A stretch of DNA of 64,000 bases from Rhizobium sp. SG_E_25_P2. GTDB lineage: Bacteria; Pseudomonadota; Alphaproteobacteria; Rhizobiales; Rhizobiaceae. The notes beneath the pieces were generated by a model. The model had not been told where the DNA came from, did not search any database, and saw only the letters and a program-made list of their open reading frames with translations. This document shows positions 20,861 through 63,327 of the stretch, one piece after another; position 1 is the first letter of the stretch, and every line of letters starts with the position of its first letter. The position numbers were made by a program, and so were the translations under genes. The DNA is taken from positions 62,001 through 126,000 of the forward strand of contig NZ_JARXVM010000009.1 of the NCBI RefSeq assembly GCF_029892285.1. The letters run 5' to 3'.

Positions 20861-22462
20861 ATGAGCGTCCATCCCTATTTCAAGTCCATCAATCGTCTTC
20901 TGCTCGGAGGCGCGCTGGCCATGTCGCTGGCGCTGCCAGCCTTGGCCGAAACCGTGATCCGTCGCGGCAATGGCGGCGAGCCGCAATCGCTCGACCAGGC
21001 GCAGATATCGATCGACATCGAAGGCTTTATCATTCGCGACCTGTCCGAAGGTCTCACGGTGTATGACGCCAAGGGCAAAGTGTCGCCGGGCGCCGCCGAA
21101 AGCTGGACCGTATCCGATGACGGCAAGGTCTACACATTCAAGATCCGTGACGCGGCCAAGTGGTCCGACGGCTCGCCGGTGACCGCCGCCGATTTCGTCT
21201 ATTCGATGACGCGCCTGCTCGATCCGGCGACTGCCGCCGGCTACGCCAACATTCTCTACCCGATCAAGAGCGCCGAAGCCTTCAATCAAAAGAAGGCCAA
21301 GGCTGAGGATCTCGGTCTCAAGGCCGTCGGCGAGAAATCGCTTGAAATCACGCTTGAGCGGCCGACGCCCTATTTCCTGCAGTTGATGACCCATTACACC
21401 GCGCTGCCGGTCAACAAAGCGAGCATCGAAAAGGACGGCAAGGATTTCACCAAGCCGGGCAAGATGGTCACCAACGGCGCCTATATGCTGACGGAATATG
21501 TCGCCAACGACCATATCACCGCCGTCAAGAACCCCAATTACTGGGATGCGGCGAATGTGAAGATCGACAAAGTCATCTACAATCCGTCCGAAGACCAAGC
21601 CGCCACCGAGCGCATGTTCGAAAACGGCGAACTTGACATGGCCTATAATTACCAGGCCGATCAGCGCGATTTTCTGACCAAGAAGCTCGGCGCGGATCAG
21701 GTGTTCGCGAGCCCGGCGCTCTCGACCTATTATTACGCTTTCGACAGCCGTCATGAGCCTTTCAGCGATGTCCGCGTGCGCAAGGCGCTGTCCATGGCGA
21801 TCGACCGCGATTTCCTCGCCGAGAAGATTTTTGGCGGCGCGCAGCTGCCGGCCTACAACCTCGTTCCCGAGGGTATGGAAGGCTACACCTCGCCTAAGTT
21901 CGACATTGCCGACATGGATCAGCTCGATCGTGAGGATGCGGCCAAGGCGCTTCTCAAGGAAGCCGGCTATGGCGAAGGCGGCAAGCCGCTCAAGATCGAT
22001 ATCCGCTACAACACCAATGAGAACCACAAGAAAGTGGCGATCGCCGTGGCCGACATGTGGAAGGCGGTCGGCGCGACCGTGACGACGCAGAATCTCGACG
22101 TCAAGGCGCATTATGCTTACCTGCAGGAAGGCGGCCAGTTCGACGTCGCCCGCGCCGCCTGGGCGGCCGACTATGCCGACCCGGAAAACTTCCTCAATCT
22201 GCTCGTTTCCACCAACAAGGCCTTCAACTATGGCCATTGGACCAACGCCAAATTCGACGCCCTGATGAAAGCCTCCTATGAGGAGCGGGATCAGGCGAAA
22301 CGCATGCAGATCATGCAGGAAGCCGAAGCCTTGGCGCTGAACGACTATCCCATCACCCCGATGATGAACTATGCCAGCCTCTGGCTCGTCAGCCGCAAGG
22401 TGAAGGGCTTTGAGGAAAACACCGTCAACGAGCATCTGACCAAATATCTCTCGATCGAGTGA
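20861..22462 (+). CDS. oppA: Oligopeptide-type ABC transporter substrate-binding protein (SBP_bac_5, OppA-like)
   Basis: A 533-residue periplasmic protein. Residues 1-29 form a Sec signal peptide (RLLLGGALAMSLALPALAE). The mature part has the SBP_bac_5 pattern: GGEPQSLDQA at the N-terminus, KWSDGSPVTAADFVYS (about 105-120), NPNYWDA, and VRKALSMAIDRD in the C-terminal lobe. It delivers peptides, or other ligands used by this family such as opines or heavy-metal chelates, to the permease encoded downstream. AAAGGTG precedes the ATG. First gene of a four-gene importer operon. Confidence 0.9.
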   Translation: MSVHPYFKSINRLLLGGALAMSLALPALAETVIRRGNGGEPQSLDQAQISIDIEGFIIRDLSEGLTVYDAKGKVSPGAAESWTVSDDGKVYTFKIRDAAKWSDGSPVTAADFVYSMTRLLDPATAAGYANILYPIKSAEAFNQKKAKAEDLGLKAVGEKSLEITLERPTPYFLQLMTHYTALPVNKASIEKDGKDFTKPGKMVTNGAYMLTEYVANDHITAVKNPNYWDAANVKIDKVIYNPSEDQAATERMFENGELDMAYNYQADQRDFLTKKLGADQVFASPALSTYYYAFDSRHEPFSDVRVRKALSMAIDRDFLAEKIFGGAQLPAYNLVPEGMEGYTSPKFDIADMDQLDREDAAKALLKEAGYGEGGKPLKIDIRYNTNENHKKVAIAVADMWKAVGATVTTQNLDVKAHYAYLQEGGQFDVARAAWAADYADPENFLNLLVSTNKAFNYGHWTNAKFDALMKASYEERDQAKRMQIMQEAEALALNDYPITPMMNYASLWLVSRKVKGFEENTVNEHLTKYLSIE

Positions 22463-22517
22463 TCCCGACCGGGCTCGCGTACGCGGACCGTTTTCGGAAC
22501 ACGGGCGCGGCCCAGAC

Positions 22518-22544
22518 GCCGCCGTCTTCACGACGGCGGCTTTT
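22518..22544 (+). terminator. Intra-operon attenuator hairpin between oppA and oppB
   Basis: GCCGCCGTC (22518-22526) pairs perfectly with GACGGCGGC (22532-22540) around a five-base loop and is followed by TTTT. The element lies in the 109-base gap between binding-protein and permease genes. A partial terminator there would keep the binding protein in excess, a familiar arrangement in ABC importer operons. Confidence 0.65.
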
Positions 22545-22571
22545 GGCCATTTCGAAATCGAGGAGGCGCCC

Positions 22572-23495
22572 ATGTTGCGTTTCGTGTTGTTGCGGCTGAT
22601 GTCCGCATTGCCGACGGTGTTTATCGTCGTGACCCTGTCTTTCTTCATGATCCGGATCGCGCCAGGCGGTCCCTTCAATCTCGAACGTCCGCTTGAGCCG
22701 CAGGTGCTCGCCAATCTCAAGGCGGTCTATCATCTCGACCAACCGCTTTGGACGCAGTATTTCTACTATCTCGGCAATGTGCTGCGCGGGGATTTCGGCC
22801 CGAGCTTCATCTACAAGGATTACTCTGTCGCCGAACTCATCCTTCAGGCGCTGCCCTATTCGATGATCCTCGGCGCCTGGGCGCTGGTGATCGCCGTGGT
22901 TGGCGGTGTGATCATGGGCGTCTACGCCGCGCTTCGCCAAAATAGCTGGCCCGATTATGCGCTGATGGCGTTTTCTGCGCTTGGCAACACCGTGCCGAAT
23001 TTCGTCATCGGCCCGATCCTGACCTTGATTTTCGCCGTCGGGTTGCAGCTCGTGCCGACAGGCAGTTGGGGGGATGGCGGCTTCCGCAATCTCATTCTGC
23101 CGGTGATCGTGCTGGCTCTGCCGCAGCTCGCGGTGTTTGCCCGCCTGACCCGCGGTTCGATGATCGAGGCGCTTCGCGCAGACCATGTCCGCACCGCCCG
23201 CGCCTATGGGCTGCCCGCGTCGAGCGTGGTCGGACGCCATGCGCTGAGAGCCGGCCTCATGCCGGTGATTTCTTATCTCGGGCCGACGGCGGCCTCGGTG
23301 CTGACAGGCTCGATCATTGTCGAAACACTGTTTTCGCTGCCGGGCGTTGGCCGTTACTTCGTGCTCGGCGCTCTCAATCGGGACTATACGCTGGTGATGG
23401 GCACGGTGGTGCTGATCTCGGTGTTCATTGTCGTTCTCAATCTGCTGGTGGATGTCATCTATGCATTCATCGATCCGAGGGTGCGCTATGAGTGA
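22572..23495 (+). CDS. oppB: Oligopeptide ABC transporter permease, OppB-like
   Basis: A 307-residue inner-membrane permease with GAGGAGG before its ATG. It has the N-terminal helix and the PGGPF motif typical of OppB/DppB, six membrane segments in all, and the EAA loop (EALRADHVRTARAYGLPASSVVGRHALR, about residues 195-222) that contacts the ATPase. The end overlaps oppC by eight bases. Confidence 0.92.
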   Translation: MLRFVLLRLMSALPTVFIVVTLSFFMIRIAPGGPFNLERPLEPQVLANLKAVYHLDQPLWTQYFYYLGNVLRGDFGPSFIYKDYSVAELILQALPYSMILGAWALVIAVVGGVIMGVYAALRQNSWPDYALMAFSALGNTVPNFVIGPILTLIFAVGLQLVPTGSWGDGGFRNLILPVIVLALPQLAVFARLTRGSMIEALRADHVRTARAYGLPASSVVGRHALRAGLMPVISYLGPTAASVLTGSIIVETLFSLPGVGRYFVLGALNRDYTLVMGTVVLISVFIVVLNLLVDVIYAFIDPRVRYE

Positions 23496-24630
23496 CGCGA
23501 TCCATCCGACAACCCCCGCTCTCGAAAGTCCTGACTCCGGCGCGGGCCGCAGCCTGACGCGGTTGGCGCTTGTTCGGCTCAGCCGCAACAAAGCCGCCGT
23601 CGCCAGTATTTTCGCCCTCGCATTGGTCGCCTTGATCTGCTTCCTTGGCCCGCTGTTCAATCCGCATGGCTATGCCGACATCTATCCGAGCTATGTCGCC
23701 GTGCCGCCAAGCCTTGAGCAATATCCGCACAGGGACACGATGGAGCCGGTGATGAACGCGGCGATCGAACGCGGACGTGCGCAAATGGAGAGTTTTGACG
23801 TCGACGGTTCGACCTATACGGTGCGGGTCAAAGCCGAGAAACCGATCGATCCGCGTATCGTGCGCTATCTCGATCGTCCTGACGAATTCGATGGCGCCGA
23901 GATTACCGAGACCGGCGCCGACGGGCTGACCGCCACGGTCAAGGGACGCATAAACGGCCAGTACTTTCTGCTCGGCACCGATCGCAACGGCCGCGACATG
24001 CTGGCGCGCATCATGGTCGGCGGACAGATCTCCTTGATGGTGGGTATTCTCGCCACGCTCGTCTCGCTGGTGATCGGCGTGGTCTATGGCGCGATTTCCG
24101 GCTATCTGGGCGGCCGCGTCGACAATATCATGATGCGGCTTGTCGAGATCCTTTATTCGCTGCCCTTCATCTTCTTCGTCATCATGCTGGTGGTGTTCTT
24201 CGGCCGCCATATCGCGCTGATTTTCATCGCCATCGGCGCGATCAACTGGCTGGATATGGCGCGGATCGTGCGCGGACAAACGCTTGCCATCAAACGCCGA
24301 GAATTCGTCGGCGCTGCGGTGGCCATGGGCCTGACGGATGGCCAGATCATCCGCCGGCACATCATCCCCAACACGATCGGTCCGGTGGTAGTGTTCGTGA
24401 CGCTGCTCGTGCCGCAGGTCATTCTGCTCGAAAGCTTCCTATCTTTCCTCGGACTGGGCGTGCAGGAGCCGCTGACCAGCTGGGGCGTGTTGATTGCAGA
24501 GGGCGCGAGCTCCATCGAGGCGGCGTCCTGGCTGCTTCTCTATCCGTCGCTGTTTTTCGTCGTGACGCTGGTGTCGTTGAACTTCATCGGCGACGGCTTG
24601 CGCGACGCATTCGATCCGAAGGACCGTTGA
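23488..24630 (+). CDS. oppC: Oligopeptide ABC transporter permease, OppC-like
   Basis: A 380-residue permease starting at ATG 23488 inside the end of oppB. After a first membrane helix (about residues 37-58) it has a large hydrophilic, probably periplasmic insertion (about 60-160), longer than in standard DppC. The LGTDRNGRDMLARIMVG motif and the membrane core follow. The EAA loop is RREFVGAAVAMGLTDGQIIRRHIIPN. It pairs with OppB to form the channel. Confidence 0.92.
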   Translation: MSDAIHPTTPALESPDSGAGRSLTRLALVRLSRNKAAVASIFALALVALICFLGPLFNPHGYADIYPSYVAVPPSLEQYPHRDTMEPVMNAAIERGRAQMESFDVDGSTYTVRVKAEKPIDPRIVRYLDRPDEFDGAEITETGADGLTATVKGRINGQYFLLGTDRNGRDMLARIMVGGQISLMVGILATLVSLVIGVVYGAISGYLGGRVDNIMMRLVEILYSLPFIFFVIMLVVFFGRHIALIFIAIGAINWLDMARIVRGQTLAIKRREFVGAAVAMGLTDGQIIRRHIIPNTIGPVVVFVTLLVPQVILLESFLSFLGLGVQEPLTSWGVLIAEGASSIEAASWLLLYPSLFFVVTLVSLNFIGDGLRDAFDPKDR

Positions 24631-24632
24631 CC

Positions 24633-26225
<1,593 letters not shown>

Positions 26226-26327: not shown

Positions 26328-29300
26328 ATGGGGGCACGTGGATTTACGATACCGGCACTATTGGGCGGGGCGCTGATCAGCGCGTCCAGCCTCACTGTGC
26401 TTGCCGATCCCCTCCCCAGGCCGCCGCCCGCAGCAGGCGCCGTCATCGCTCGCAAGAGCGGCGAGGAAGTCCGGTTTATCGACGCCTCGCAATGGCGGTT
26501 CGTGGATGTCAAACAGGACCTCCTGGCCGGCGACGTGTTGCGCACCAATGCCGTGGGCCAACTTGCGATCCTGTTTTCCGACCGCACGCAGATCCGGCTT
26601 GGCCGCAATTCCTCGCTGGTGGTCAAGAAGCTCGCTGCGTCGGACGCTGAAGAGACGGTGTTCGAACTGCAATCGGGCTCGATCTGGGCGCGGGCCGAGC
26701 GCGGCGGCTCAAGCGTGAAAGTCGAGACCCCAGCGGCCACCGCCGCGATCCGCGGCACGGACTGGACGATGACGGTTGCGGGAGCTCGCACCGCGCTGCG
26801 CGTGCTCGACGGCCGCGTGTCGCTCAGCAATCCCCAGGGCTCGGTCGATGTGTCGCAGGGCCAGGCGGCTGCGGCGACGGTTGGCCAGGCGCCGGAGATG
26901 CTGGCGATCGTCGATTCCGACGACCGCGAGCAGATGCTGTTCTATCTGCCGCGTCGCGAACCTTTCGAACGAATGTCGCCCACATTCGGTCGGCCTGTGG
27001 AGGTCCGTCGCACGATCATCGCTATCTCCGAGAAAGACGCCGCCGCGCGCAGCGCCGAAGAGTGGGTCTCCCTGGTCGAGGGACAGTTGCGGCTCGACGG
27101 CGTTCTGGCGGCGGAGCAGACGCTGGCCCATCTCGACGACAGCAAATTCAGCCGCAGCCAGCGCGCCCGTCTGACGTTGGTCAAGGCGATCATCGCCGGT
27201 TTCAAGAGTGATTATAAGACCTCCGCCCGCCTGTTCGCGGAGGCGAAGCCCGGGCTCGACAAACGCCGGCAGGGGATAGCGCTTTATGGCGGCTACTACG
27301 CCCGCACGCTCGCCGATCCAAACCATGTCGAGCCGCTGCCGACTTCCGTGGATGGTCCTGAAGCGGCGTTCTTGCGCGCGTATGCTCTGGGGTTTCTGAA
27401 GGATCTCAGGGCGACGATAGCGGAATTTAAGAGCGCGGAAAACCGCTTCCCCGAGGATCCCGTATTGCCGGCCTATCGCGCTTGGATCGCGCTGCTTCTT
27501 AACGACCGTGGCCAGGCCAAGGAAGCGATTGCGCGCGCGCTGGCGCTTGATCCTGACGAACCGGTGGCGATGGAGGTTTCGTCACACTTCAAATCCGGCA
27601 TTGAGGGCGATCTGAAAGGAGCCCTTGCCTCCGTGGAACGCGCGGTTCAGATCGAGCCGGGGGCTGATTCCGGCTGGAATGAAGTTGGCAATATTCAATC
27701 GGAATTGGGTGGCGCGCGGGAAGCAGAGGCCGCTTTTCGCAAAGCGATTTTTCTCGATCCGTTCGATGCCGTCAGCCATACTAATCTCGCGATATTCTAT
27801 CTCGATCTCGATAGGGTCAACGATGCGAAGCCCCTGATCGACAAAGCATTGTCGCTGGATCCGGGTTTCTCGCCGGCGCTGGTTGCCCGTGGCCGATATT
27901 TTCTGCAGACCGGCAAAACGGATATCGGCGTCGAGGATCTGTTCGCTGGGTCAGTGACGGATCCCGGCTATGCTCAGGCCCAGCTGGGGCTCGCTGCGGC
28001 TCAGTATCAGAAAGGCGACCGCGTTGCCGCCGATCAGGCGCTCGACAACGCCGAGCGGCTCGACGGCAATGATCCTGTGGTGTCCGCCGTGCGGGCGCGC
28101 ATGGCGCTCGACGACTATGATTCCGTCAACGCCATTCGGTATGCACGCGACTATGTTCGCCTGTCTCGTGCGCGAGGCGGCTATTACGGGGCTCTCGGGG
28201 CCAATCAGGAGTCTGGCTCGACCCTCAACGGCGCCTTCCGCTTTCAGGGTCTCAATGCCTGGGCTGAGTATTATTCGGACGCCGTTTTTGATGCCTTCTC
28301 GGGTTCGGCATTGATCGATCAGGCGTTACGCGGCAGTCCGCCCGGCTATTTCACCAATTATTCCTATGGCGTCGACATCGTCCAGAACGCCACAACCAGC
28401 CGCTCCGCTTCCGCGCTGTTTCAGGGATTGCTCTTGGAGCCGCATATGGTGTCCGGCCCCACGATGCATCCGCAATTGTTTCGGGCGCCTTTCGTCGAGA
28501 CCACAATTGGCGGCGGGGTGGTGGTATCGGGTTCGGATGTGGGGCCTTTGGTCAATGCCGAGGTGCAGGCGTTTTCAAATTCCGGCGTCCCGCTCAGCAT
28601 TTACGCCAATGTCGACTGGGAACGTGCGACTGATGAGCGGACCGTTGACGCGTCAGGCGACATCACGTCGACCAACGAAATCGCGAATGGTCTGGTCTAC
28701 ATCACGGCCAGTCCGACACCCTACGATCGGGTGATCGGCTTTTTCAATCGCTCCACGGAAAATGATGATTTTCTGCAGACATTGCGAAGCGTTCCGCCCG
28801 GCGAATCTGACATCGACGGCGACGGCGACGTCATCGCTGCCGGTCTCGGCTGGAGCCACACGCTCGCCTATCACGACGTCGTCAATGCGGCTCTGTTTTA
28901 CACTAAGGCCAAGAGCGATGTACTGCAAACGGTCAATTTCTTTCCCACTCCCGGCGCTCCCGTTCCTTTTTTGGTCAGCATCGAGGATGTCGATCATCAA
29001 GCCGCGCTCGCTTCCCTCGGGCGTACGGTCGAGACAGGCGACGTCACCTGGCGGTACGGCGTGGAAGCCGGCTGGCAGTGGCAGAATAGCCAATATGCTT
29101 ATGTGCGAGCAGGAAGCCCTGCCATCATAACCGGTTCGTCCGTCATCGGCGACAAGATGATTGGCCGCGCCTATCTCGACGCCTTGCACGACTTTGCGCC
29201 CGGCTGGAAGGCAGAATATGGCTTCACGGCGTCGATGTCAGGCGGGGGAGAGGATGGCGCTCGAAGGCTTGATCCCCGCGCGGGTTTTGCCTGGGAGCCG

Positions 29301-29975
29301 GTCAATGGCCAATGGCTTCGTCTCGGCTATCTCGGAGAAAGTTCCGAATTCACGACGCCGACTCTATCGCCAATTGGCGTTGTTGGATTGCAGGCTGCAC
29401 AGGTTCCGGTGGATTCGAATGGCGGCGTCGATACGCTCGCGGCACGATGGGATGCGGAATGGACGCGAAGCGTTTTCACCGCTGTCGAATATCAGCATCA
29501 GGAGATCGACGATTTTTTCGCGCTGGTCCCAAGCCAGAATTTCGGCATTTCCGTCTCGCAAGGTTCATCTGACCGCTTGAGCGCAACCGGCAATCTGGCG
29601 TTAGGCGGCGGGCTCGGCCTGTCCGCCACCGCAGTCCGGACGTGGTCGGAAAACCAGGATCCGCTTTCGCGCAACGTAGGCGACCGCATGCCGTTTATGC
29701 CCTCCTGGGCCGGGCAGGTCGCGGCAACCTGGGTCAATGAAAACAATCTTCGTCTGACTGTGGCGGGCAATTATCTCGGCAAGCGTATCGACGGCGCGGG
29801 CGTTAAACTTGACGATGTCTGGACGCTCGACGCCGGGCTGACCTGGGAGCCATTCGGCAAGCGTTATTCGCTTGAGCTCACGGCCTACAATATTCTCGAC
29901 GCCGATTTCGAGATTTCCGATGGGGTTCCCGGTTGGGGTCCCTCCTTCCGCGGCATGTTCAAGGCCCGTTTCTGA
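26328..29975 (+). CDS. Secreted FecR-TPR-outer-membrane beta-barrel fusion protein
   Basis: A 1215-residue exported protein. Residues 1-26 form a signal peptide. About 38-180 is a FecR-type domain, with core SGSIWARAERGGSSVKVETP and TAAIRGTDW (116-146). About 380-610 contains TPR repeats, with conserved DP turns such as ALALDPDEP, AIFLDPFDA and ALSLDPGFS. About 640-1215 alternates hydrophobic and polar residues as an outer-membrane barrel does and ends in phenylalanine (FKARF), the usual barrel-assembly signal. It is followed without a gap by a CHASE2 adenylate cyclase. The function is unknown. Context suggests an outer-membrane sensor or scaffold acting with the cyclase. The ATG at 26328 has no obvious ribosome-binding site, but the signal peptide supports it. 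Confidence 0.82.
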   Translation: MGARGFTIPALLGGALISASSLTVLADPLPRPPPAAGAVIARKSGEEVRFIDASQWRFVDVKQDLLAGDVLRTNAVGQLAILFSDRTQIRLGRNSSLVVKKLAASDAEETVFELQSGSIWARAERGGSSVKVETPAATAAIRGTDWTMTVAGARTALRVLDGRVSLSNPQGSVDVSQGQAAAATVGQAPEMLAIVDSDDREQMLFYLPRREPFERMSPTFGRPVEVRRTIIAISEKDAAARSAEEWVSLVEGQLRLDGVLAAEQTLAHLDDSKFSRSQRARLTLVKAIIAGFKSDYKTSARLFAEAKPGLDKRRQGIALYGGYYARTLADPNHVEPLPTSVDGPEAAFLRAYALGFLKDLRATIAEFKSAENRFPEDPVLPAYRAWIALLLNDRGQAKEAIARALALDPDEPVAMEVSSHFKSGIEGDLKGALASVERAVQIEPGADSGWNEVGNIQSELGGAREAEAAFRKAIFLDPFDAVSHTNLAIFYLDLDRVNDAKPLIDKALSLDPGFSPALVARGRYFLQTGKTDIGVEDLFAGSVTDPGYAQAQLGLAAAQYQKGDRVAADQALDNAERLDGNDPVVSAVRARMALDDYDSVNAIRYARDYVRLSRARGGYYGALGANQESGSTLNGAFRFQGLNAWAEYYSDAVFDAFSGSALIDQALRGSPPGYFTNYSYGVDIVQNATTSRSASALFQGLLLEPHMVSGPTMHPQLFRAPFVETTIGGGVVVSGSDVGPLVNAEVQAFSNSGVPLSIYANVDWERATDERTVDASGDITSTNEIANGLVYITASPTPYDRVIGFFNRSTENDDFLQTLRSVPPGESDIDGDGDVIAAGLGWSHTLAYHDVVNAALFYTKAKSDVLQTVNFFPTPGAPVPFLVSIEDVDHQAALASLGRTVETGDVTWRYGVEAGWQWQNSQYAYVRAGSPAIITGSSVIGDKMIGRAYLDALHDFAPGWKAEYGFTASMSGGGEDGARRLDPRAGFAWEPVNGQWLRLGYLGESSEFTTPTLSPIGVVGLQAAQVPVDSNGGVDTLAARWDAEWTRSVFTAVEYQHQEIDDFFALVPSQNFGISVSQGSSDRLSATGNLALGGGLGLSATAVRTWSENQDPLSRNVGDRMPFMPSWAGQVAATWVNENNLRLTVAGNYLGKRIDGAGVKLDDVWTLDAGLTWEPFGKRYSLELTAYNILDADFEISDGVPGWGPSFRGMFKARF

Positions 29976-31948
29976 TGATGGCACTCGCCAAGCTCTGGCG
30001 GCGATGGCGCGGCTTCGTTGGTCGACGCGGCCAGATCGTCATCCTTTCGACGCTGCTCTTTCTCGCCGTTGCCGGCCTGGCGCGGCTGCCTTTCTGGGCG
30101 CTCGTGGATTATCGGGCCTTTGACTATCTTTCGACCGTCGGCGCGCCGCCGCTGCCGGAAGATGCGCCGCTTGTGGTGGCGATCGACGAGCCGTCGCTTG
30201 CCGACATCAATCAACGCTGGCCCTGGCCGCGCAGCCTGCACGGCCGTCTCATCAAGGCGCTACGGACTGCTGGCGCGAAGGCGATTGGCTTCGATATCGT
30301 GTTTTCCGAGCCCTCAACCGAGGCGGAAGATCAGGCCTTGAAGCAGGCGCTCGGCTCAGACGTTGTGCTGGCCGCCGATGAATCGCTCGTCACCGCAGAT
30401 CAGGCCGATCAGTTGATCCGCGCCATGCCGCTGCAGATGTTTTCCGACACAGGCGCCGCGGGGGGCATCGCCTCTGTCACTCTCGGCCGGGACGGCGTGT
30501 TGCGCGAGGCGCCGGCCTATCCCGACGGTTTCGCCGCCATGTTGGCGAAAGCCGCAGGCGAGGCCTTCGATCCGCCAGAGCCGGGCCGGTTGATCCAGGT
30601 GTTTGGAGGGCCACGCAGCTACCAGACGATCTCTTATTACCAGGCGCTTGATCCCGACAATTTTCTACCGCCCGGCCTGATCCGCGGCCGCGTCGTGGTT
30701 GTGGGTCTCAGTCTGCAGAACGCCCCGACGCTCGACAGCGGCGGCGCCGACGCGTTCGCCACGGCGCATACGGTGCATGACGGGCGGCTGACGGCGGGTG
30801 CGGAAATCCAGGCGACGATTTTCGACAATCTCCGTTATTCCCTCGCGGTCCGTGACGGCTCGGACGCCCTGCGGCTGGGGCTGCTGCTGTTCGTGGCGAT
30901 CGCCTCGGCTTTGATCGTCTCGACAAATTCCGGCTGGCAGGGGTTTGGCGTCGGGCTGGCCCTGATCACCGCCGTCTTCGTTGCGACCTGGTTCATGCTG
31001 CGCTTCGGTCGGCTGTTCATCTCGCCCATGCCGTCACTGGCGGCCTTCGTCGCCATCCATGCCGGCCAGGCGATGATCGATTACGCGCAGGAACGAAAGT
31101 CGCGCCAGCGCATCACCAAGGCCTTTGCGCAATATCTCGCCCCGGAACTGGTGCATCAGCTGGCCCGCGACCCCTCTCGCTTGAGGTTGGGCGGCGAAAA
31201 ACGCGAGCTCTCCATCCTGTTCTGCGACGTGCGCGGCTTCACCACCATTGCCGAGCAGCTCAAGGATGATCCCGAGCAACTGACCACGCTGATCAACCGC
31301 CTGCTCACGCCGCTTTCGGACATAGTGCTGGCGCGCAGCGGAACGATTGACAAATATATCGGCGATTGCCTGATGGCGTTCTGGAATGCGCCGCTGGAAT
31401 CGCCCGACCACGCTTTTCTCTCGGTCTCGGCGGCGCTCGACATGCTGGACGCCATGGATGCGCTCAATCATACGCTTGAGGCGGACGCGCGCGCGCATGG
31501 CAGGCGCCATTTCCCGCTGCGCATCGGCGTCGGGGTCAATACGGGCGATTGCGTCGTGGGAAATATGGGCTCAATGGCGCGCTTCGACTATTCGGTGCTG
31601 GGCGACGCGGTCAATCTCGCCTCCCGCCTCGAAGGCGCGTCCAAGCTTTACGATGTGCCGCTGCTGATCGGTCCGGAGACGGCTCGCATCATCGGCGACA
31701 GGCTCGCCGTGTTTGAACTCGATCGGATCGTCGTCAAAGGCAAGACCGAGGAAGCGCCGGTGTTCACGGTTCTGCGCACCGCCTCGCCGGATGTTCTGGC
31801 TCGCCACCGGGCGCTTCTCGACGCCTATTACGGCGGCGATCTAGCCTTGGCTCAGCAATGCGCCGCGACGCTTGCCGAGGATAACCCGGCGCTCGCGGGC
31901 TATTATGCGCGGTTCGATGTGATCGCAGGAGAGGGGCGCGCGCTATAG
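29975..31948 (+). CDS. CHASE2-domain class III adenylate cyclase
   Basis: A 657-residue membrane enzyme starting at ATG 29975, overlapping the previous stop (TGATG). It has one N-terminal membrane helix (about 21-43), an extracytoplasmic CHASE2 sensor (about 45-290), further membrane helices (about 299-316, 323-341 and 350-366) and a cytoplasmic cyclase domain (about 408-600). Metal-binding Asp418 and Asp464, Lys460 for base recognition, and the transition-state pair Asn547/Arg551 are present. The second base-specifying position is Ser540, the class IIIb pattern of adenylate cyclases. It should make cAMP in response to a periplasmic signal, possibly relayed by its coupled FecR-TPR-barrel partner. 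Confidence 0.92.
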   Translation: MMALAKLWRRWRGFVGRRGQIVILSTLLFLAVAGLARLPFWALVDYRAFDYLSTVGAPPLPEDAPLVVAIDEPSLADINQRWPWPRSLHGRLIKALRTAGAKAIGFDIVFSEPSTEAEDQALKQALGSDVVLAADESLVTADQADQLIRAMPLQMFSDTGAAGGIASVTLGRDGVLREAPAYPDGFAAMLAKAAGEAFDPPEPGRLIQVFGGPRSYQTISYYQALDPDNFLPPGLIRGRVVVVGLSLQNAPTLDSGGADAFATAHTVHDGRLTAGAEIQATIFDNLRYSLAVRDGSDALRLGLLLFVAIASALIVSTNSGWQGFGVGLALITAVFVATWFMLRFGRLFISPMPSLAAFVAIHAGQAMIDYAQERKSRQRITKAFAQYLAPELVHQLARDPSRLRLGGEKRELSILFCDVRGFTTIAEQLKDDPEQLTTLINRLLTPLSDIVLARSGTIDKYIGDCLMAFWNAPLESPDHAFLSVSAALDMLDAMDALNHTLEADARAHGRRHFPLRIGVGVNTGDCVVGNMGSMARFDYSVLGDAVNLASRLEGASKLYDVPLLIGPETARIIGDRLAVFELDRIVVKGKTEEAPVFTVLRTASPDVLARHRALLDAYYGGDLALAQQCAATLAEDNPALAGYYARFDVIAGEGRAL

Positions 31949-61749: not shown

Positions 61750-63327
61750 TCAGCCGTAGATCGCATTCAATTCGGCGCGATGCCGTTTCATGGCCAGATA
61801 GGCGGAATAGTCGCGTTCGTGGAGACGGGAGGTCTCCGAATTGGGAGTGATGACCTGTCTTCCACGATCATAAGGCGCCGGTTGGTTGGCGAAATCTGGC
61901 GCCAGTTCTGCTGCACGCATAGCATGCATAGCGCAACCAAAAAGAACCGAATCTCTGTTTGCCTCGGTCACCACTGATTTACCCGTGACATTGGCGTAAA
62001 GCGTGGGAATGAGCGGATGGCTCACAAATCCACCCGCCATCAACAGCGTGTTGACCTCGTCGCTTCCGGGCATATTGGTAAGACTGTCGCGGATAGAGCA
62101 GGCCAGACCGACACAAGCGCGCCAGAACAATTTGCAGAGACCATCGAAACTCTCGTCCAACGTCAGCCCCGCCAGAGTTCCGGTCAATTCCGGGTCGGTG
62201 ACGGGAGAGCGCGCGCCATGAAAATCAGGCAGCACGGTCAAGGGAGCGCCATATGCCGGGCCTGCCGCTGCAAGCCTCTCCGAGATCGCATCCAGCAACG
62301 CCAGAGGTGACGGCGGCGATGCGCCTCGACCAGCGGGATGCAGGCGGATCAGATGATCGAGCAGCGCGCCGGACGCGGATTGGCCAGCTTCCATCAGCCA
62401 GAGATCCGGCAAGGCGACATCGCGAAAACCACCCCAACATCCGGCTTTGGTCCGAGCATTCTCATCGAAGCGGATGACGCAACTCGACGTGCCGGCAATG
62501 AGCGCGGCCTTCCGGTGGAAATCCGCGCCGCCAACGGAGGCGAAGACGCCGATCGCGCCCGCATAGGCGTCGATCAGGCCGGGGGCGACGAGGCAGCGTC
62601 GTGTGAGCCCGAGAGCGTCTGCCGCGCTCCCGCTCAGTGATCCGATGGCCGCGCCCAACGGCGTCGACATCTCGGGAATTCCAGATCTTGCCGCCAGGTC
62701 GGACAGCCCGATGCGGCGATAGAAATCGTCGGGGCGTGCGCCGGGCGCTATGGGCTCATAGCCCCATTTCGAGGCGAGCGACGAATGCGAACGCGCAGGG
62801 GAGCCGGTGGCTCGCCAGGTGAGATAATCGCAGAGATCGAAGATCTGGCCTGTTTTCGCCCATGTCTCCGGCAGATGTCGTTTGAGCCAAAGAAGTTTCG
62901 GCGCCTGCATTTCCGGCGAAAGCCGACCGCCAAAACGGCTGACGACAGGGTCGTCCGCAAGCGAGCACTCCGCCGCTTCGTTGCGGGCGCGGTGATCCAT
63001 CCAGAGCATGGTGTCGAAGGATCCGCTTTCCGAGGCGGAGATCGAGATCGGCGCGCCGTCTTTATCTCTCGTCACCAGTGAACAGGTGGCGTCGAAACCG
63101 ATCGCGGCGATGTCATCGGGGGAAAGACCGGCGGCCTGCCGCGCCTCTCGCACGGATCTGCAGACGGCGGCCCAGATCTCCTCGCTATCCTGCTCATATT
63201 GAAGCGGCTGCGGTCGATTGAGCCCGATGGGCGTCACCGCCCGCGCCAACTGCCGTCCGCTGAGATCGAAAACGCCGGCGCGCGCGCTGCCGGTGCCGAC
63301 ATCCACCGCGATGACATGTTCACCCAT
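61750..63327 (-). CDS. FGGY-family carbohydrate kinase, D-ribulokinase-like
   Basis: A 525-residue kinase from ATG 63327, which lies inside the end of the upstream HAD gene (8-base overlap), so the two are coupled. It starts with the phosphate-binding loop IAVDVGTGSARAGVFD (residues 5-20), has GFDATCSLV and WMDHRA in the first domain, GTSSCVIRF at the ATP site and MAGGFVSHPLIPTLYANVTGK near the C-terminus. The AVDVGTGSARAGVFD start and the length resemble D-ribulokinase/FGGY proteins of polyol catabolism rather than xylulokinase or glycerol kinase. The exact sugar is uncertain. Confidence 0.85.
   Translation of the reverse strand: MGEHVIAVDVGTGSARAGVFDLSGRQLARAVTPIGLNRPQPLQYEQDSEEIWAAVCRSVREARQAAGLSPDDIAAIGFDATCSLVTRDKDGAPISISASESGSFDTMLWMDHRARNEAAECSLADDPVVSRFGGRLSPEMQAPKLLWLKRHLPETWAKTGQIFDLCDYLTWRATGSPARSHSSLASKWGYEPIAPGARPDDFYRRIGLSDLAARSGIPEMSTPLGAAIGSLSGSAADALGLTRRCLVAPGLIDAYAGAIGVFASVGGADFHRKAALIAGTSSCVIRFDENARTKAGCWGGFRDVALPDLWLMEAGQSASGALLDHLIRLHPAGRGASPPSPLALLDAISERLAAAGPAYGAPLTVLPDFHGARSPVTDPELTGTLAGLTLDESFDGLCKLFWRACVGLACSIRDSLTNMPGSDEVNTLLMAGGFVSHPLIPTLYANVTGKSVVTEANRDSVLFGCAMHAMRAAELAPDFANQPAPYDRGRQVITPNSETSRLHERDYSAYLAMKRHRAELNAIYG

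Follow-up and report, generated by a model that had tools for sequence, protein, structure and literature searches.

An NsrA–CyaK-type receptor–cyclase gene pair in Rhizobium sp. SG_E_25_P2, with a predicted FecA-like barrel and a probable role in transenvelope cAMP signalling

We analysed a window of 64,000 nucleotides (the whole stretch of DNA, positions 62,001 to 126,000 of contig NZ_JARXVM010000009.1) from Rhizobium sp. SG_E_25_P2, and focus here on two overlapping genes that resemble nsrA and cyaK. These genes very probably constitute a transenvelope signalling pair of the NsrA–CyaK type, in which a signal would pass from a surface receptor, through cyclic AMP (cAMP), to a transcriptional regulator. 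In tblastn searches the product of gene 1 matches NsrA of Sinorhizobium meliloti 1021 with 47.5% identity over 97%, and that of gene 2 matches CyaK with 55.6% identity over 95%; the two matches adjoin on pSymB in the order seen in the window. Another S. meliloti record labels the pair nsrA and cyaK, the genes sharing one base. Judged by this homology, the window pair belongs to the NsrA–CyaK system and is itself not new. The analysis ties the pair to an experimentally studied receptor–cyclase system and predicts that NsrA combines FecR and a FecA-like barrel of 22 strands in one fusion protein. To what is already known of the system it adds the structural likeness of the barrel, the spread beyond nodulating bacteria and an association with PycTM genes.

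Open reading frames and Pfam matches agree with the first-pass annotation of this DNA in placing here two genes with FecR, TPR, CHASE2 and cyclase domains. They meet at a TGATG junction, where the stop codon of the first gene shares one base with the start codon (ATG) of the second, an overlap that suggests translational coupling. The features, with the evidence for each, are the following.

26328–29975, + strand: nsrA-like gene for an outer-membrane receptor of 1215 residues with FecR, TPR and predicted 22-strand barrel parts (open reading frame, Pfam, homology, models)
26328–26405, + strand: probable signal peptide, residues 1–26 (translation judged by eye only)
26532–26819, + strand: FecR domain, residues 69–164 (Pfam PF04773, E 1.2e-15; strands in the model, at low confidence)
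26958–28172, + strand: TPR or helical-repeat solenoid, residues ~211–615 (TPR Pfam families; helices of the AlphaFold2 model)
28173–28490, + strand: conserved linker with short helices, residues ~616–721 (alignment conservation, models, no Pfam Plug domain)
28491–29972, + strand: predicted 22-strand outer-membrane barrel, residues 722–1215, with C-terminal Phe
29973–29977, + strand: TGATG stop/start overlap (read directly)
29975–31948, + strand: cyaK-like gene for a CHASE2 class III cyclase, 657 residues from the ATG at 29975 (open reading frame, Pfam, homology)
30056–30868, + strand: CHASE2 sensor region, residues 28–298 (PF05226, E 7.4e-35)
31202–31753, + strand: class III cyclase catalytic domain, residues 410–593, with D418, K460, D464, S540, N547 and R551 (PF00211 Guanylate_cyc, E 2.3e-21)

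Published work gives the pair of S. meliloti, a symbiont of alfalfa, a defined role. This bacterium answers Medicago signal 1, as well as the ribosomal protein uL2 in its free form, with a cAMP response that needs both NsrA and CyaK (PMC7529298), a requirement cited again in PMC13001267, and E. coli uL2 is among the uL2 proteins that elicit the response (PMC7529298). The same source describes NsrA as an outer-membrane barrel protein, its barrel portion being given as residues 600–1200 in the S7 legend. The first-pass annotation did not know of a characterised case in which the barrel is fused; S. meliloti NsrA is one. Its proposal that a surface barrel senses something and that the CHASE2 cyclase responds with cAMP is borne out in part, in that such a response is reported for the homologous NsrA and CyaK (PMC7529298). 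The ligand in this organism and a direct periplasmic contact between the two proteins, like a Crp-type reader of the signal, are what we infer beyond this.

In the scheme that we favour, NsrA would be held in the outer membrane by its FecA-like barrel, whose acidic outer loops would be the site of ligand binding on the cell surface, the basic protein uL2 being the candidate in S. meliloti. The periplasmic FecR and TPR parts would relay the signal to CyaK through its CHASE2 domain, presumably by contact, and the co-translated inner-membrane cyclase would then produce cytoplasmic cAMP. A Crp-family regulator, for which the candidate lies beside a second FecR–CHASE2 pair described below, would alter transcription. 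The domains, the predicted barrel, the gene overlap, the linkage and the homology are the observed part of this scheme; its first and last steps, the surface ligand and the Crp regulator, draw on homology.

The linkage of the two genes is conserved. A lack of such linkage and a lack of a C-terminal barrel were two of the refuting conditions named in the first-pass annotation, and both tests favoured it. Scanning a genome collection with an alignment of six sequences returned 357 relatives; we kept the best 80, a set biased to close relatives. The cyclase gene lies downstream of nsrA on the same strand in 80/80 of these, with the one-base stop/start overlap in 72/80, and the commonest other neighbour family reaches only 33/80. 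Three of the 80 loci are imperfect: both genes are broken in L038, and L045 and L088 are cut by contig ends within the cyclase. The closest copies are those of Rhizobium sp. G21 (89% in its best-matching segment) and FKL33 (85%); in the former (L038 6995–12615) both genes are split into several frames, by decay or assembly error. We also drew an even sample of 297 genomes from the family, counting nsrA at an E value of 1e-100 or better. The gene is present in 69/297, and its 74 places give 72 loci (window included) once a fragment (G285) and an additional piece of a single gene (G209) are dropped. The cyclase adjoins nsrA in 65/72 of these loci, with the one-base overlap in 46/65 pairs. Among genomes of the same genus listed in this sample, 2/5 have the gene.

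In a sample of the order, 9/199 genomes have an nsrA copy above 1000 bits and all nine (window included) have the cyclase with it; in a sample of the phylum, 8/398 genomes match at an E value of 1e-60 or better, all eight from the same order. The one-base overlap recurs in S. meliloti, Rhizobium BG4 and Methylocystis. Among plasmid records searched by tblastn, 97 match gene 1, and in 84 of them a match at a single place covers 80% or more of it; 67/97 are from Sinorhizobium. Separately, locus L142 (genome G098) encodes a 1096-residue FecR–TPR protein with weak similarity to NsrA and no Pfam barrel, near a cyclase that matches the CyaK profile (112 bits).

We used AlphaFold2 to model the receptor from an input of 45 sequences, the window protein and 44 of the 80 related loci. 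The model of residues 27–1215 has a predicted local distance difference test score (pLDDT) of 80.5 and a predicted template modelling score (pTM) of 0.78, and that of residues 618–1215 has a pLDDT of 83.7 and a pTM of 0.83. Both models contain 22 long strands, which span residues 722–1214 in the full-length one. Gaps after odd-numbered strands run to 1–22 residues, against 2–5 after even-numbered ones; in a predicted structure, this alternation is the usual outer-loop and inner-turn pattern of outer-membrane barrels. Of the best 50 structure matches listed from the PDB for each model, 50/50 are TonB-dependent receptors by name, FecA being first (for the barrel model, E 3.9e-18 and a template modelling score (TM-score) of 0.56 by query and 0.52 by target length). 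The C-terminal barrel of the first-pass annotation thus stands, with 22 predicted strands and these matches, but its start moves from about residue 640 to about 722. It is clearly predicted by the models. The C-terminal Phe noted in the first pass is shared by 79/80 related loci.

The barrel is barely visible to sequence profiles. In the C-terminal half of gene 1 the only barrel matches are sub-threshold (OMP_b-brl_3, E 0.013, below the cut-off), and when PDB sequences were searched with a profile of the barrel, the single match was at chance level (E 0.68). The Pfam family of TonB-dependent barrels is reached by 1/45 barrels (E 8.5e-12), which is not that of the window. A Plug domain (PF07715) was found neither in the window protein nor in the 45 members scanned from window residue 618. 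Pfam places TPR families at residues ~383–591, and between the TPRs and the barrel lie about 100 conserved residues (616–721) with short helices and no Pfam match, a segment that may take the place of the plug. On the predicted structure, a single NsrA chain seems to unite FecR with a FecA-type barrel, the TPRs lying between the two and no plug being recognisable.

Because all 50 listed structure matches are uptake receptors by name, NsrA might instead be primarily a transporter or porin, acting in TonB-dependent-receptor-like uptake or as a TPR-porin such as the exopolysaccharide exporters, with the cyclase only reporting substrate or present through operon convenience. A run of same-strand genes that by eye is a peptide ATP-binding cassette (ABC) uptake operon (20861–26225) ends 102 base pairs upstream of nsrA, which would suit this explanation. 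We nevertheless regard it as highly improbable. None of the 45 barrels has a Plug domain, neighbours outside the module are little shared, the sensor cyclase is linked to nsrA in every one of the best relatives, and NsrA is placed upstream of cAMP signalling in PMC7529298. A polysaccharide-export porin of the PgaA type was considered and rejected, the sequence similarity to the PgaA model being limited to the TPRs and the barrel being TonB-dependent-receptor-like. Upstream of nsrA there is a single terminator-like hairpin (26206–26221); a promoter scan found none, and a PHROGs search matched two families, both of unknown function.

The cyclase appears catalytically intact. Residues D418, K460, D464, S540, D544, N547 and R551 are invariant in 78/78 sequences, namely the window protein and 77 of the 80 related loci (the three with partial or broken frames were left out). 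Five of these, D418, K460, D464, N547 and R551, had been read as intact in the first pass; S540, the second base-recognition position, was missing from that list. Lys and Ser/Thr at the two base-recognition positions of CyaK are what we take to be the class IIIb adenylate (purine-type) pattern, and from its sequence the gene 2 product is expected to make cAMP.

For the outer end of the scheme, PMC7529298 suggests that basic uL2 binds acidic outer loops of NsrA electrostatically. In the window protein, 30 acidic and 12 basic residues fall in the hairpin caps predicted to face outwards, and over the 45 sequences the mean net charge is −23 in the outer caps (mean length 243) against −7 in the inner turns (mean length 153). 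In the models, the acidic outer caps thus fit a basic protein ligand, without proving one.

NsrA–CyaK acts in the control of secondary infection of Medicago (PMC5498481, PMC7529298, PMC13001267), and homology to it could mean that the window pair is a receptor specific to plant symbiosis, reading host signals in nodulation as in S. meliloti. The distribution of the pair makes this very unlikely. We sought NodA in 40 of the 80 carrier genomes and found a match in 14/40 and none in 26/40, the two nearest relatives being among the latter. The window genome gave no NodA match, in a run in which no control matched (the same test matched in the 14 carriers), and its three weak nifH matches all fall short of the cut-off. 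The pair is also present in Methylocystis. NsrA–CyaK is thus not confined to nodulating bacteria, and since 26/40 carriers lack a NodA match, the ligand is probably not a symbiosis-only signal.

In many relatives the pair has a third neighbour. A small divergent gene upstream of nsrA belongs to the PycTM family in S. meliloti, Rhizobium BG4, Neorhizobium galegae and Rhizobium SSA_523; three of these four proteins were run through Pfam, and 3/3 scored above the cut-off. The PycTM genes upstream of nsrA, all divergent, include the following.

L003 4220–4765: PycTM gene
L007 4225–4767: PycTM gene
L005 4229–4768: PycTM gene

A divergent PycTM gene lies upstream in 68/80 of the best relatives (loci L010–L089) and is absent from 12/80. 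It is present at 46/72 even-sample loci; five of these 46 were first printed as ‘other’ on account of long overlapping frames, and were counted as divergent since they are upstream of nsrA and face the other way. Of the nine copies in the order sample, 5/9 have PycTM as a neighbour: it is divergent at three, and at two, in a different family (L138, L139), it lies upstream in the same orientation. Across the family sample, PycTM occurs in 52/69 genomes with NsrA against 17/228 others (Fisher 2.5e-28, a value that ignores phylogeny). The window genome gave no PycTM match in a search whose controls matched in 2/14. In the open-licence literature, which leaves most subscription papers outside the search, we found no paper joining Pycsar, PycTM or DUF5706 with CHASE2, adenylate cyclase, the outer membrane, Sinorhizobium or rhizobial cAMP. 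The neighbourhood of nsrA and PycTM, the Pycsar effector family of anti-phage signalling, is a recurrent association.

One explanation is that the pair forms a cyclic-nucleotide effector system akin to Pycsar and triggered at the cell surface. The CyaK product would then also gate the membrane effector PycTM, which the window lineage lacks. The neighbourhood in most relatives, its co-oriented form in another family and the genome-level co-occurrence all speak for this, but PycTM is missing from the window genome and from part of each set of related loci, and the co-occurrence was not corrected for phylogeny. In addition, CyaK has the purine-type Lys, and the reported output is cAMP, not cyclic CMP or cyclic UMP. 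We consider this explanation possible but doubtful. Membership of the window pair itself in Pycsar was rejected, the genome search for a PycTM-type effector (controls matching in 2/14) having given no match. More speculative still, and in our judgement unlikely, is that in much of the family the locus is a three-gene module, in which a surface receptor for spilled basic proteins such as free uL2 is joined by a CHASE2 cyclase and by a membrane effector, PycTM. It would serve as an envelope-spanning alarm for cell damage (lysed plant, microbial or phage-killed cells), recruited for symbiosis in S. meliloti, and the window lineage would keep the alarm and lack the effector. The PycTM neighbour offers a way to test whether symbiosis signalling and anti-phage cyclic-nucleotide effectors are linked.

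We return to the reading of the two genes as an NsrA–CyaK-type signalling pair, against which several observations weigh. In 19/65 even-sample pairs the exact overlap is lacking, and at 7/72 loci NsrA has no adjacent cyclase. Two of these cyclase-less copies are in genomes with another, linked copy (G339, G395), but five are in genomes with none: G271 and G350 (two each) and G254 (one, truncated). Some match to the NsrA profile appears in 188/199 genomes of the order sample; those listed below the top nine are short, lie mostly over the TPR part and were not counted. The TM-scores to known TonB-dependent receptors are moderate, at 0.5–0.6, and the FecR part of the AlphaFold2 model is of low confidence. 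The acidic surface is not universal, because the barrel region of a distant Methylocystis homologue is not net acidic (54 acidic and 60 basic residues in its last 520). The pairing of NsrA with its cyclase is not strictly one-to-one either, because S. meliloti NsrA also serves CyaD1/D2 (PMC7529298). PycTM is missing at 26/72 even-sample loci (one of them, in G282, starts at a contig end). Lastly, a Clr box was found neither upstream of nsrA nor anywhere in the window, and control of the pair's own promoter by Clr was rejected on that ground; among the 68 relatives with PycTM, a scan of about 400 bases found the box in 1/68. Six of the seven cyclase-less copies are more divergent (below 1160 bits), L176 being the exception. 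These NsrA-like genes are L176, L204, L205 and L212–L215; the next gene encodes what by eye is a small membrane protein in L213 and L215.

The window genome has a second FecR–CHASE2 pair, in which a 169-residue FecR gene overlaps a CHASE2 cyclase gene by four bases (L143 6988–9335). It lies beside a divergent Crp-family gene (whole locus L143 6172–9335, G000:C1) whose product has as its best PDB match 7pza, which we take to be S. meliloti Clr. In S. meliloti, clr (SMc02175), cyaD1 (SMc02176) and the FecR gene smc02177 have consecutive locus numbers (PMC5498481). By analogy, the second-pair locus may supply the cAMP reader. Like the window pair it consists of a FecR gene overlapping a CHASE2 cyclase gene; unlike it, it has FecR only, without TPR or barrel. 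The two base-recognition positions of its cyclase are occupied by Asp and Ala, unlike those of window CyaK, so the product may differ.

The pair can be set beside several known systems. With Pycsar (PycC and PycTM) it shares the class III cyclase catalytic fold and, in many relatives, the PycTM neighbour, but the window genome lacks the effector, and matches to the PADLOC models of the Pycsar cyclase (PycC) are confined to the catalytic domain, as follows from CyaK being a class III cyclase. The predicted barrel has 22 strands, as do those of TonB-dependent receptors, but PF07715 was not found. As in FecA–FecR–FecI, there is a FecR domain and a predicted FecA-like 22-strand barrel; here, however, a single chain carries both, separated by TPRs, neither a Plug nor an STN domain was found, the gene after the FecR protein encodes a cyclase rather than a sigma factor, and the gene before it an ABC ATPase by eye. 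The CHASE2 cyclase clusters of Campylobacterota, as described in PMC9239204, likewise group FecR, TPR and CHASE2 cyclase genes, but their FecR outer-membrane and TPR proteins are separate genes and a phosphodiesterase is added. A literature search for CHASE2 with a TonB-dependent receptor and adenylate cyclase found nothing beyond that paper. The closest system is S. meliloti NsrA–CyaK (CyaK being SMb20776). The window pair differs from it in its other flanks, in having no divergent PycTM neighbour (nor any in the genome) and in the lack of a NodA match, but is like it in domain order, barrel region, gene order and stop/start overlap.

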